Shown here one piece after another: positions 857 to 5,081 of a stretch of 64,000 nucleotides of DNA. The translations under genes and the position numbers were made by a program. The stretch lies in NCBI RefSeq assembly GCF_016612505.1, contig NZ_JAENRR010000008.1, forward strand, positions 62,001-126,000, in the 5' to 3' direction. Position 1 is the first letter of the stretch. Each line of letters starts with the position of its first letter. The notes below the pieces were generated by a model, which saw nothing but the letters and a program-made list of their open reading frames with translations, had not been told where the DNA came from and searched no databases. This DNA is from Carboxylicivirga marina (lineage in GTDB: Bacteria > Bacteroidota > Bacteroidia > Bacteroidales > Marinilabiliaceae).

Positions 857-913
857 ATTGCCGCCATCGCCTAAAGGCACCTCCTCAAAGGTAAAGGTAT
901 TATGCCTTGTATT

Positions 914-958
914 GAATTCTCCCCTTGGGGAGATACCCGAAGGGAGAGGGGGAATTTT
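914..958. repeat. REP-like palindromic intergenic repeat
   Basis: The perfect palindrome CTCCCCTTGGGGAG (919-932) is nested in a wider inverted pair, GAATTCTCCCC on the left and GGGGGAATT on the right. Hairpins of this CTCCCC/GGGGAG type are scattered between genes in many Bacteroidota genomes. A degraded relative appears near 20600-20655. The surrounding gap otherwise holds no gene. Confidence 0.5.
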
Positions 959-1056
959 ATACTGAAAATTATAATTATAAGGAGATAAGCTCTTATTATA
1001 TGCTAAAACAAGTGTCAGCAACATTCTATAATCTAAAAAGCAAAGCGGTCTAAATT

Positions 1057-1971
1057 ATGAACTACCCAATTACCCTGTATTCCCCAAAAGACTTAAGCCG
1101 GTTATCTGCTTTCATAAATGCCAATTGGCAACACGATAGCATAAGCGAAACTGTTTTGCGGGAAAAGCTGGAAGGCGACCCTCATTGGATGCCCGAAGCC
1201 ACCTTTATTTGTAAAGATGGTGACAAAATAATTGGCTTTATGCAAGGTGTGATACGCGATATTAGCGAAACGCGCTATGCCTATATTAAACTAATGGCTG
1301 TTGATGAAGCCTATCGTCGAAATGGCATTGCATCGGCCATGTATGAAAAGTTGGAAGCTATTTTTATAGAGCAGAAAGCAGATGTCGTTCGCATTTACGA
1401 TGTGCCTTTGAACTATTTTATGCCGGGCATCGACCCACGTTATACAGCCGCTTTGTGTTGGGCTATGCGAAAGGGATTCAAGCGATTTGGCGATACATCT
1501 AACCTTCTGGTTGATTTAAACCAAAACTGGGATATGAGCAAAAAAGAACTGGCACTGCAAGCCAATAATATTGTGGTGCGACGTGCCAAACCTGATGAAG
1601 AACAAGCTGTTCTTGAATTTATAAAAGATGAATGGCTATTGTGGAACAATGAGGTAAAAATGGCTTTTCAAGATGAGCTGCCATCGATTCATATTGCTTT
1701 GTTAAATGGTCAGGTAAAAGCCTTCTCGGCACACAATGCCAATAACAAAGGAACCGGTTGGTTTGGGCCCATGGGCACTCATCCCGATTTGCGTGGCAAA
1801 GGTCTGGGAGCCATCTTGCTTAAACGATGCTTGCAAGATATGAAAGAAATGGGCCTATCGCATTCGATTATCCCCTGGGTTGGCCCCATTGATTTTTACT
1901 CGCAGATTGCCAATGCCCTTGTCGATAGAGTATTTTGGCGATATGAGAAGAAGCTGTGCAGTAAGCATTGA
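1057..1971 (+). CDS. Tandem-GNAT acetyltransferase
   Basis: A 304-residue protein with two GNAT folds in tandem. The first carries the acetyl-CoA pyrophosphate-binding motif A as RRNGIAS near residue 89, and the second as RGKGLG near residue 248, each following the usual V-D/T-H-P-x-x-R-x-x-G pattern. Tandem GNATs are usually cytosolic transferases acting on small amines or sugars, with one domain often catalytically quiet. The acceptor cannot be read from sequence. It sits between a DUF4922 gene and a SpoIID gene in a likely cell-wall turnover group, so an amino-sugar or muropeptide acceptor is possible (inference). A 21-bp-period repeat array starts three bases after its stop codon. Confidence 0.8.
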   Translation: MNYPITLYSPKDLSRLSAFINANWQHDSISETVLREKLEGDPHWMPEATFICKDGDKIIGFMQGVIRDISETRYAYIKLMAVDEAYRRNGIASAMYEKLEAIFIEQKADVVRIYDVPLNYFMPGIDPRYTAALCWAMRKGFKRFGDTSNLLVDLNQNWDMSKKELALQANNIVVRRAKPDEEQAVLEFIKDEWLLWNNEVKMAFQDELPSIHIALLNGQVKAFSAHNANNKGTGWFGPMGTHPDLRGKGLGAILLKRCLQDMKEMGLSHSIIPWVGPIDFYSQIANALVDRVFWRYEKKLCSKH

Positions 1972-1973
1972 AA

Positions 1974-2225
1974 ATTGCTTCAACGGAAGCAGTCATATCT
2001 ATCCGAACAGATGCCAATGTCTTAAAACAAAAAGAGATTGTTTTAGTCAAAGAATTAATTGCTTCGATGATAAGCTTCATTGTTTGAGCAATATATGTCA
2101 TTTTTTCAGTTCAAGAAACGAATGTCTAACTTCAGGCTGGCTTTGCTTTATCTGAAGATCGGATTGCTTAAGTGTAAGCGGTCATTGCTTTGGATTCAGC
2201 AGCGTATGTTTCATTGTTAGTATTG
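1974..2225. repeat. Array of twelve degenerate 21-bp units
   Basis: Cutting the sequence every 21 bases from 1974 gives twelve units with no indel. Most begin ATTGCTT, ATTGTTT or AATGTCT (1974, 2016, 2037, 2058, 2079, 2121, 2163, 2184), the rest being weaker variants. The third heptamer of each unit tends to start with AG, and the middle heptamer is unconserved. In one plus frame the array reads as a C-F/L heptapeptide series, but that frame is stopped by TGA at 2156 while the DNA pattern continues, so the conserved object is DNA or RNA rather than protein. Confidence 0.8.
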
Positions 2226-2355: not shown

Positions 2356-3696
2356 ATGAAAAACACACCCTTCATACAAGTTGGCATACAATTTAAAGAA
2401 ACCATAGCATTTACCTTAAATGGCACTTATAAACACAGCTCTGGTGTAACATTAACAAGCGGAAAATACAAAGTATCCATAGCTGGTAATGTATTGGAAC
2501 TTGTGCAGTGTAACAATGGAGAAGAAATACTGATTCGTAATGGTTTGCTGTTCGAGCCAAAAGCAGATGATGCCTTTTTTACCATTCATGATGTTACCAT
2601 TGGCATTAATTTTCATTGGGAGCGCGATGAAGATCAATCCTTTAAAGGAGGGCTAAAACTAATTACTGAAAACGAAAAGATTACTGCCATTAATGTTCTC
2701 TCTGTTGAAGATTACCTGATGAGTGTTATTTCATCAGAAATGAGCGCCACCTCATCGCTAGAGTTATTAAAGGCGCATGCAGTTATATCGCGCAGCTGGT
2801 TGTTAGCACAAATTGAAAAAAACAATTCCTTACAACAAGCCACTGACACTTACCAATCGGTTTATCAATCAGACGAAAAATTCATTAAGTGGTACGATCG
2901 TGAAGACCATATCAATTTTGATGTATGTGCCGATGATCATTGCCAGCGTTATCAAGGCATTACAAAAGCCAACACATCCGAGGTTGTTGAAGCTGTGAAA
3001 AACACATGGGGCGAAGTATTAATGAATGGTGAGGCTATTTGTGATGCCCGCTTTTCTAAATGCTGCGGCGGCATGGTCGAGAAGTTTGAAAATGTCTGGG
3101 AACCTGTTAACCATCCTTATTTACAGGCATTTGTCGATAACGACAATAATCCTGATGGTTTTGAATTGGATCTGACGAACGAGAGCAATGCTGAAAAATG
3201 GATACTTGGTAGTCCGGATGCCTTTTGTAATACCAATAACAAGGAAGTGCTGATCCAGGTATTGAACGACTACGACCAGGAAACCAATGATTTCTATCGC
3301 TGGAGCGTCAGCTACACACAAAAAGACATAAGTGAATTACTAAAAAAACGTACGGGCTTCGACTTTGGAATCATACAAGATTTAATACCCGTTAAAAGAG
3401 GCGATTCGGGTCGCTTAATTGAGCTGAAGATTATTGGCGATAAAAAGAGCTTAACTATTGGTAAAGAATTAGAGATTAGAAAAGCGCTATCGGAATCGCA
3501 CTTGTATAGCTCAGCCTTTATTATTGAAAAGGCGGAAGTAAATGGCGAAGTAAACTTTACACTTAAAGGTGCCGGATGGGGTCATGGCGTTGGTCTTTGC
3601 CAGATAGGCGCTGCCGTTATGGGTGCCAAAGGTTACAATTATAATGCTATCTTAATGCATTATTTTCGAGGGACCGAATTGAAAAAGAAGTATTAA
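2356..3696 (+). CDS. SpoIID/LytB-domain protein
   Basis: A 446-residue protein of the SpoIID/LytB family; sporulation SpoIID is a lytic transglycosylase that cuts stem-peptide-free glycan strands. The core is visible as VEDYLMSVISSEM (about 117-129), followed by LLKAHAVISRSWLL, and the C-terminal signature GWGHGVGLCQIGA with AILMHYFRGTEL near the end. There is no signal peptide or membrane helix at the N terminus (MKNTPFIQVGIQ), so it may be cytosolic, which suits processing of imported wall fragments rather than sacculus cleavage. The next gene is AmpG-like, supporting a role in muropeptide recycling (inference). Bacteroidota are not spore formers. Confidence 0.85.
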   Translation: MKNTPFIQVGIQFKETIAFTLNGTYKHSSGVTLTSGKYKVSIAGNVLELVQCNNGEEILIRNGLLFEPKADDAFFTIHDVTIGINFHWERDEDQSFKGGLKLITENEKITAINVLSVEDYLMSVISSEMSATSSLELLKAHAVISRSWLLAQIEKNNSLQQATDTYQSVYQSDEKFIKWYDREDHINFDVCADDHCQRYQGITKANTSEVVEAVKNTWGEVLMNGEAICDARFSKCCGGMVEKFENVWEPVNHPYLQAFVDNDNNPDGFELDLTNESNAEKWILGSPDAFCNTNNKEVLIQVLNDYDQETNDFYRWSVSYTQKDISELLKKRTGFDFGIIQDLIPVKRGDSGRLIELKIIGDKKSLTIGKELEIRKALSESHLYSSAFIIEKAEVNGEVNFTLKGAGWGHGVGLCQIGAAVMGAKGYNYNAILMHYFRGTELKKKY

Positions 3697-3788
3697 AGCT
3701 AGTCATGAATAGTTAGCTATTACCTCCTAAACATTTAAAAAATGCATCGGATATTCTGACTTGCAAATATTGTCACTAAAGCACTAAA

Positions 3789-5081
3789 ATGAAACAAAAA
3801 TCTCCATGGGCGTGGGTGCCCTCATTATATTTTGCCGAAGGAATACCTTATGTGGTAGTTATGACTCTGGCTGTTATCATGTATAAGAAATTAGAAATAT
3901 CCAATACTGATATTGCTTTATACACTTCGTGGCTATATCTACCTTGGGTAATTAAGCCCTTTTGGAGCCCGATTGTGGATACCTTAAAAAGCAAACGTTG
4001 GTGGATTGTAACAATGCAATTACTCATTGGTGCCGGACTGGCAGGTGTTGCTTTTACTATTCCAACAACCTTCTTCTTTCAGTCAACCCTGGCATTCTTC
4101 TGGTTACTGGCATTTAGTTCAGCCACGCACGACATTGCTGCCGATGGTTTCTACATGTTTGGTATGGATGAAAGCAAGCAGGCCTATTTCATTGGTATTA
4201 GAAGCACGTTTTATCGATTGGCCATGATTGCTGGCCAGGGATTACTAGTCTTTTTGGCTGGCCAACTTGAGGAAATGACTTTATTTGGTAATGAAGAGCC
4301 GAGCATTCCTTTAGCCTGGTCGCTAACCTTCTATATAATCACCGGCATGTTTCTACTGTTTGCATTATACCATAAGTTTGCATTACCACACCCTGTTGAA
4401 GATCAGACTAAAGAAGTGAAAAGCATCAGTGAGGTCATAAGTGAATTTGTCCATACCTTCACAACTTTTTTCTCAAAAAAGGACATCTGGGTAATTATGG
4501 GAATGCTACTATTCTATCGCCTGGGCGAATCACAGCTGGTAAAAATGGCATCACCATTCTTGTTGGATAAACCCGAAGTTGGCGGTTTGGGACTAACTAC
4601 CAGTCAGGTTGGTATTGTCTATGGTACCATTGGTGTTATTTTCCTTACCATTGGCGGTATTCTGGGTGGCTTATTAGCTTCTCGCAACGGATTAAAATAC
4701 TGGTTATGGCCAATGGTTATTGCCATTAATCTACCCAACCTGGTGTATGTTTACCTCTCCTACGCCTTACCCGAATCTTTTGTATTGGTCAGCATCTCGG
4801 TAGCTATTGAGCAATTTGGTTATGGTTTTGGTTTTACCGCTTACATGCTGTATCAGATATATGTATCAGAAGGTGAGCACAAAACAGCACACTTTGCTTT
4901 TTGCACCGGATTAATGGCCTTAGGTATGATGTTACCAGGTATGATTTCAGGTTGGATTCAGGAATTGATCGGTTACCAGCATTTCTTCGTGTGGGTCATC
5001 ATTTGTACTATCCCTAGTTTTATAATGGTCAAACTCATCAAGGTCGACCCAACGTTCGGCATCAAAAAGGAAAAAAGTTAA
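3789..5081 (+). CDS. ampG: AmpG-like muropeptide MFS permease
   Basis: A 430-residue, about 12-helix major-facilitator protein of the AmpG type. The N terminus has the family hallmark FAEGIPY, followed by a loop with the YLPWVIKPFWSPIVD pattern typical of AmpG. AmpG proteins import GlcNAc-anhydroMurNAc peptides through the inner membrane. The gene lies between the SpoIID gene and a NagX-like gene, 26 bp before the latter, probably cotranscribed. Length matches the shorter, Bacteroidota form without extra C-terminal helices. Substrate is inferred from family and context; other sugar conjugates cannot be excluded. Confidence 0.82.
   Translation: MKQKSPWAWVPSLYFAEGIPYVVVMTLAVIMYKKLEISNTDIALYTSWLYLPWVIKPFWSPIVDTLKSKRWWIVTMQLLIGAGLAGVAFTIPTTFFFQSTLAFFWLLAFSSATHDIAADGFYMFGMDESKQAYFIGIRSTFYRLAMIAGQGLLVFLAGQLEEMTLFGNEEPSIPLAWSLTFYIITGMFLLFALYHKFALPHPVEDQTKEVKSISEVISEFVHTFTTFFSKKDIWVIMGMLLFYRLGESQLVKMASPFLLDKPEVGGLGLTTSQVGIVYGTIGVIFLTIGGILGGLLASRNGLKYWLWPMVIAINLPNLVYVYLSYALPESFVLVSISVAIEQFGYGFGFTAYMLYQIYVSEGEHKTAHFAFCTGLMALGMMLPGMISGWIQELIGYQHFFVWVIICTIPSFIMVKLIKVDPTFGIKKEKS

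Follow-up and report, generated by a model that had tools for sequence, protein, structure and literature searches.

Between a gene for a GNAT acetyltransferase and a gene for a SpoIID-domain protein of Carboxylicivirga marina lies an array of twelve head-to-tail 21-bp units (Table 1). It begins 2 bp past the GNAT stop codon and ends 130 bp ahead of the start of the SpoIID-domain gene. We analyzed it within a 64-kb stretch of the genome, hereafter the window, and compared it with similar arrays in relatives and across the phylum. The consensus of its units is AtTGcTT.a.t..aAgaagtc on the plus strand and ..c..cTt....t.AA.CAaT in the sense that adjoining genes define in the gene-linked arrays described below.

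Table 1. Features of the array locus in the window
Feature	Coordinates	Strand	Evidence
Upstream neighbour: acetyltransferase of 304 aa containing two GNAT stretches	1057..1971	+	PF00583, E 5e-22
Orphan array of twelve head-to-tail 21-bp units	1974..2225	minus (the 'gene sense' of gene-linked arrays)	sequence, autocorrelation and motif match
Stretch of unit 1, TTCAACGGAAGCAG, common to the same-place arrays of C. sediminis and C. mesophila	1979..1992	+	read from sequence
Downstream neighbour: SpoIID-domain protein, 446 aa	2356..3696	+	PF08486, E 9.8e-24

The twelve units fill their interval without a single insertion or deletion, which bears out the exact 21-bp period reported in the initial annotation of this DNA. 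Autocorrelation over positions 1961–2240 is 0.456, 0.462, 0.452 and 0.449 at lags of 21, 42, 63 and 84 bp against a background of 0.265 (SD 0.032), and the best 230-bp stretch reaches a lag-21 identity of 0.491 (z = 7.0 relative to lags 8–119 at every window position). These are the top values across the 64 kb at lags 8–119. Tandem Repeats Finder misses it, even at a score of 30. The proposal that each unit consists of three 7-mers fails, since lags 7 and 14 stay at background (0.249 and 0.256) and the unit thus has no 7-bp sub-period. Words like ATTGCTT and ATTGTTT were said to recur every 21 bp; these two open six of the twelve units, and the remaining six begin with ATATCTA, AATGTCT (twice), ATTTTTT, TTTGCTT and TATGTTT.

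The neighbouring GNAT gene served to locate the same place in relatives; it turned up in 11 of 60 genomes, with ten strong matches including the window's own. Arrays with a 21-bp period occupy the same place in C. sediminis (L026/L098, 11 units) and C. mesophila (L027/L099, 14 units), with one 1-bp shift, and in another genus (L029, nine units), where the motif is yet another one. The stretch TTCAACGGAAGCAG in unit 1 is common to the window, C. sediminis and C. mesophila, which suggests, as far as sequence comparison goes, orthology of the three arrays in their 5' part; apart from this stretch, the arrays of the latter two species follow the consensus TATGTAAGnnnnnCAGnnnnG. Of the nine relatives read 3' of the GNAT gene, five have no array there (L024, L025, L028, L030 and L031), and in L023 the contig stops too early for a decision, ~180 bp after the gene. 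Loss of phase in close relatives had been named beforehand as evidence against selection on spacing: phase is kept in C. sediminis, C. mesophila and L029, and the five relatives just listed lack the array altogether. At the DNA level, a search of 60 relatives with the window array returned, beyond its own locus, only matches of ~16–50 bp (best E 0.0025). Related arrays can grow by block duplication, as seen in the lag-42 identity of 0.78 in L027 and in the repeated five-unit block of L137. The earlier contrast between fixed spacing and recent duplication was therefore drawn too sharply: blocks are duplicated, and the spacing is kept afterwards. As a separate observation, elements resembling ctccccttggggagatacccgaagggagaggggg and runs of CGGACTTCGGACT recur at window positions 890–960 and in the intergenic regions of L023–L027.

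The window array has many counterparts within the genus. A spaced pattern, allowed up to two mismatches in 14 Carboxylicivirga genomes, gave 62 matches in eight of them, against five matches in four genomes for the reversed pattern that served as control. The same kind of scan in named genomes returned 12 stretches: one Bacteroidetes MAG with three matches, six stretches with one match each, and five contigs that are apparently already contained in G003 (two), G007, G009 and G011. We also surveyed 924,405 bases of the window's own genome for periods of 12–40 bp, with coding sequence included and the N-only contigs L121–L128 excluded. Periodic sites were found at 21 bp (nine), 22 bp (seven), 12 bp (four), 23, 18, 24 and 33 bp (three each) and 14, 30 and 32 bp (one each), with none at the remaining periods of this ~0.92-Mb survey and none in the shuffled control; the density of 21-bp sites is biased, because four of them had been preselected by the pattern and one is the window's own. 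Intergenic arrays with periods of 22 or 23 bp and units such as GGTTAAACCCTGGG lie in this genome at L139:9931-10062, L119:3772-3947, L133:395-526, L114:13617-13748, L079:6595-6755 and L116:1781-1918.

Five of the arrays (L084, L086, L088, L089 and L097) sit 5' of a gene for a 224-aa protein without a Pfam match. A search with this protein recovered relatives in 18 of 30 genomes, and the family so defined comprises proteins of ~215–225 aa, probably helical to judge from their sequences, in several classes of Bacteroidota. A profile (A1) built from 23 sequences and searched in 395 genomes of the phylum matched 21 of them at E <= 0.001, a figure that takes in weak matches, and 15 (14 genera) below 1e-10, with at most seven matches per genome. 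Among the weak matches are L201 and L202 (531 aa), which, judging by sequence, we take to be a different protein.

The association between this family and 21-bp arrays is strongly one-sided. Linkage was assessed at 58 family loci, 57 of them measurable, with orthologs and paralogs both counted and the maximum of 570 shuffled controls as the threshold. The 21-bp signal exceeds it in the upstream flank at 40 of the 57 loci and in the downstream flank at three; restricted to members with E < 1e-20, the figures are 38/48 upstream and 3/49 downstream. When any period from 15 to 30 bp is admitted, 41 upstream flanks pass the threshold; 39 of them score best at 21 bp, the exceptions being L191 (20 bp) and L207 (16 bp, with a 21-bp array also there). 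In the L184 array, the spacing alternates between 20 and 21 bp. Sixteen further loci, drawn from 24 listed matches without a locus, behave alike: 13 exceed the threshold with a best period of 21, all 5' of the gene, and the other three show a period of 20 bp (L216), a weak downstream signal (L213) and no signal (L212). Family loci without an array above threshold also exist (e.g., L157, L163, L169, L174, L181, L189 and L212), and at L166 and L168 the array lies downstream of the gene. Counted by handles and scores, gene-adjoining arrays above threshold occur in 17 genera. The arrangement thus appears to be widespread in Bacteroidota and apparently undescribed: judging from titles and listings, we found no description of such 21-bp arrays in the literature on arrays and repeats.

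Two loci deserve separate mention. At L207, tandem repeats of 16 bp that are almost perfect (score 0.976) run from position 400 onwards, with a family gene adjacent and the 21-bp array present too. On contig C148 of G000, a good 21-bp array of 17 units (L214:3020-3376) lies near a piece of a family gene (3635-3832) that has a stop and is within ~100 bases of the contig end; this may be a decayed gene that has left its array behind or a mere contig edge.

The gene-linked arrays are direct 21-bp repeats of 5–31 units as extracted, and units within most arrays are about half alike. From locus to locus, the units differ strongly (TTACATAnnnngCTG, CAAGTAnnnntcT, CAGGTAnnnatCTgtC, GAAATGc and others), and the conserved columns of many arrays fall into two short boxes separated by roughly one turn of the helix. 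Array motifs follow the proteins beside them: over 53 loci, protein identity correlates with same-strand array similarity at r = 0.513, a value that none of 2000 permutations equals, against r = 0.081 for the opposite strand. Removing pairs above 70% identity lowers the same-strand value to r = 0.273 (the permutation figure refers to the full set).

Several arrays lie very close to their genes. The gaps at L165, L167, L185, L206–L208 and L211 are as short as 28–90 bp, so that a promoter distinct from the array would have little space there. In Carboxylicivirga, a conserved leader occupies the interval between array and start codon at L152–L155, L158–L161 and L170–L173; it consists of GTTACG or a near form, followed ~20 bp later by TATTAAC and by CAATTAAC or a near form, and it contains the perfect palindrome ACTAATGAGTACTCATTAGT in L152, L154 and L171. 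A leader of this kind, with its palindrome, would fit a promoter region under the control of the array.

Database searches say little about what the family protein does. Pfam, NCBIfam, PHROGs, PADLOC and PDB-sequence comparisons gave no match over cut-off, or otherwise convincing, apart from carboxypeptidase-regulatory-like C-terminal tails. No DNA-binding family over cut-off and no Nop domain appear for the family proteins among the matches listed (the best 25 of 58 weak families), the window neighbours likewise being without a Nop domain. Models of known defence proteins run against 23 members gave four weak matches to single members (best E 0.0009). A plasmid search with one family protein found no relatives, and viral contigs contained no relatives of three family proteins or of one DUF6261 protein. 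The tails are carboxypeptidase-regulatory-like in L167 and L181 (Pfam, over cut-off) and, by eye, in L165, and weakly fibronectin-like in L197 and L199, which is odd for a DNA binder. Isoelectric points fall mostly between 5 and 7, with a fair number above 7. These acidic values, together with the carboxypeptidase-regulatory-like tails, leave room for a different binder.

The window array belongs with the gene-linked arrays in period, motif and orientation but lacks the family gene 3' of it. The frames of at least 60 aa in the 64-kb window include no member of the family, and none is listed on contig C195 among the profile matches; we therefore call the array an orphan. Frames of at least 60 aa likewise contain no family member at the loci of other orphan arrays (L029, L077, L087, L090, L092–L096, L098, L099, L107 and L137). 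The motif closest to the window's among 73 arrays is that of a gene-linked array in a congener (L224, ATTgttttA..tcaAgATg.c), with a similarity of 0.748; the maximum expected under column permutation is 0.476 ± 0.047, and none of 2000 permutations reaches the observed value. Eleven of the window's 14 best motif matches are gene-linked; in all 11, among which there are some mutually related arrays, the gene sense corresponds to the minus strand of the window. An orphan array may closely resemble a gene-linked array elsewhere in its genome, as do those on contigs C111 (L107) and C77 (similarity 0.937), which makes recognition in trans plausible. For the window array, we found no cognate protein: none of the four paralogs of the window's genome compared with the L224 protein is close to it, identity being at most ~28% over the full length and 37.5% over one 80-aa piece.

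What is conserved inside the units speaks to how they are read. Coding units should be conserved with a period of 3, whereas reading from one face of B-DNA should give a rhythm of 10.5 bp, the second harmonic of 21. Across 55 arrays, the second harmonic of column conservation amounts to 0.306 against 0.10 expected when columns are permuted (z = 16.6). The codon harmonic, at 0.058, is below expectation. Against a smoother null, which is imperfect in that harmonic 10 misfits as well (z = 5.5), 43 mutually dissimilar arrays (of 70) still give 0.272 versus 0.165 ± 0.020; the second harmonic is the largest in 23 of the 43 and exceeds the first in 30. As for phase, the net deviation is 17 bp over 599 unit junctions in 43 gene-linked arrays, in a count where opposite shifts inside one array cancel and the walk permitted shifts of 1 bp only. 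The rarity of slips and the 10.5-bp rhythm support the suggestion in the initial annotation that spacing by two helical turns is under selection; as a whole, its interpretation is partly supported.

A second protein family shows a similar design. An insignificant Pfam match of the family (E 0.077) pointed to DUF6261 (PF19775), an uncharacterised protein of ~240 aa that occurs in three of 148 genomes of the phylum, with 11 copies in the window's genome; the only literature match for it concerned Streptococcus. Ten of 16 DUF6261 loci (L228–L243) have an upstream 41- or 42-bp array above 0.484, a yardstick borrowed from lag 21. The DUF6261 arrays resemble the 21-bp arrays in lying in tandem 5' of an uncharacterised gene with a spacing of nearly a whole number of helical turns, and differ in having four turns (41–42 bp) instead of two, only 4–6 units and mostly dyad-symmetric halves (e.g., TTTCCGCnnnnGCGGAAA and TTGCTTnnnnnAAGCAA). 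Dyad symmetry (p < 0.05) was detected in nine of 12 extracted DUF6261 arrays, a set chosen from the 16 loci for showing the 41–42-bp lag and including two below 0.484, against four of 72 arrays of the 21-bp type. We do not claim homology between the two families, for which hhalign gives a probability of 2.3%; near-whole-turn spacing in two families without shown kinship strengthens the case for a reading tied to the DNA helix.

On balance, we consider it reasonably likely that the window array is a gene-less representative of a type of DNA site array phased with the helix, in which each unit would be a protein contact and the family protein the likeliest binder; the array is probably bound on one helical face by a protein of this type. 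From the comparisons above, we infer the following sequence of steps: (i) The conserved boxes would serve as contacts for a sequence-specific protein that binds double-stranded DNA. (ii) The likeliest binder would be the family protein encoded next to the array, alone or as part of a complex. (iii) Given that units are two turns apart, the bound copies would align on one face of the helix and build up a multivalent nucleoprotein cluster. (iv) At gene-linked loci, the cluster may act on the promoter of the downstream gene in an autoregulatory manner. (v) Orphan arrays, such as that of the window, may recruit or titrate a related protein in trans, or may be what remains of loci that have lost their gene.

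An RNA-level alternative, in which transcripts of the array are processed into 21-nt units that act on the neighbouring protein as guides or inhibitors in the manner of TIGR-Tas or ToxIN, strikes us as rather unlikely. The layout of array plus gene would suit it, and ToxIN, too, has its array 5' of the gene; the family proteins (seven proteins, 23 members) have no ToxN-, CptN- or TenpN-like (type III toxin–antitoxin) match listed. According to PMC12045711, TIGR arrays have units of ~36 nt in which conserved boxes (edge and loop repeats) and variable stretches alternate beside a single gene. The arrays described here share with that account of TIGR-Tas (PMC12045711) the two conserved boxes split by variable stretches next to one gene and a motif that is constant within a locus and varies between loci, but they depart from it in their 21-bp unit, their B-DNA rhythm and the near-identical units of some arrays. 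The variable stretches measure just ~4–7 nt, against the 36-nt RNAs to which TIGR units give rise (PMC12045711), and the near-identical units (L187 and L199) offer no spacer diversity for guiding. Folding gives the RNA system little general support: relative to column shuffles, seven and six of 55 arrays do fold better (z < -2), but mean z is only -0.37 and -0.25, and the window array itself reaches -0.98 and +0.61 on its two strands (-1.59 and -0.50 against dinucleotide shuffles). No Rfam model matches the window at gathering scores. The 10.5-bp conservation rhythm suits B-DNA.

We regard as unlikely, too, that the arrays are neutral minisatellites, with slippage or unequal crossing-over yielding drifting 21-bp copies and the link to a gene reflecting hitch-hiking. 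The block duplications within arrays (L137 and L027/L099) are what such a process would leave, unit number and motif change fast between species, and five relatives have no array at the window locus. Drift should, however, strike all columns equally, whereas conservation is uneven with its 10.5-bp rhythm and indels are rare; moreover, across 17 genera, motifs unlike one another keep to a length of 21 bp and lie almost always 5' of the same protein family.

That each window unit is a short stem-loop, acting as RNA or as a cruciform, seems to us quite improbable, and phased hairpins, which the initial annotation offered as its alternative, do not hold up as a general explanation. Pairing is possible in units such as TGCTTCAACGGAAGCA and GCTTAAGTGTAAGC, and in a fixed register, pairs around positions 3–8/13–18 are slightly above column shuffles (p = 0.035 with G-U, 0.017 with Watson–Crick pairs only). 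A DUF6261-linked 42-bp array of the window's genome (L236) has dyads of the TTGCTT/AAGCAA type, and its similarity to the window (z = 4.2) is the highest of the 12. With the register left free, pairing in the window is marginal (p = 0.06 with G-U allowed, 0.017 with Watson–Crick pairs only), and the dyad test gives p = 0.163. Only four of 55 arrays fall below p = 0.05 in the pairing test, about the number expected by chance, and inspection by eye reveals no unit hairpins in the sister arrays of C. sediminis and C. mesophila, although the latter (L099) is among the four.

Finally, a degenerate coding repeat of seven codons, of which the window copy would be a pseudogene, is very improbable, and as a general explanation we rejected it after six-frame and harmonic tests: 21 bp does equal seven codons, frame +2 of the window array does read as Cys-Phe/Leu heptads crossed by one stop, as first described, and stops in the best of six frames are slightly fewer than in column-shuffled arrays (45 versus 55.2 ± 4.5 over 55 arrays, 1/100 as low), but in 28 of the 55 arrays none of the six frames is free of stops, the period-3 harmonic is below expectation, and the L084 and L088 arrays, with similar neighbours, have different frames open.

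Among known systems, plasmid iterons (e.g., the sites of RepA or pi) and REP/BIME palindromes also invite comparison. The 21-bp arrays resemble iterons in being direct repeats with a spacing of about two helical turns that adjoin the gene of their presumed binder. They are unlike iterons in occurring several times per genome, on contigs with housekeeping genes, with up to 31 units and with orphans between housekeeping genes; the matches listed for the family proteins include no replication initiator family, and the neighbours in the window are GNAT and SpoIID proteins. With REP/BIME palindromes, the 21-bp arrays have in common that they are short repeats between genes, located at gene ends and numerous in a genome; they differ from REP/BIME in their strict head-to-tail period, in having no general palindrome and in being associated with a different protein family.

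Tentatively, and with less confidence than we place in the reading of the window array, we propose that Bacteroidota may carry, phylum-wide, an as yet undescribed class of two-part loci composed of a small protein and an array of sites spaced by whole helical turns (21 bp, or 41–42 bp for DUF6261), with a motif private to each group of paralogs, and that orphan arrays between housekeeping genes may be trans targets at which large one-faced nucleoprotein clusters organise or silence the chromosome. The link between gene and array provides a way of finding members that does not depend on names, and the same design is suggested for DUF6261. If this is right, many 'hypothetical' Bacteroidota genes would gain a DNA-array partner with a motif legible in the genome sequence itself, private pairs of protein and array in several copies would provide orthogonal DNA-binding parts, and the organisation and regulation of the chromosome in these abundant bacteria would be seen afresh.
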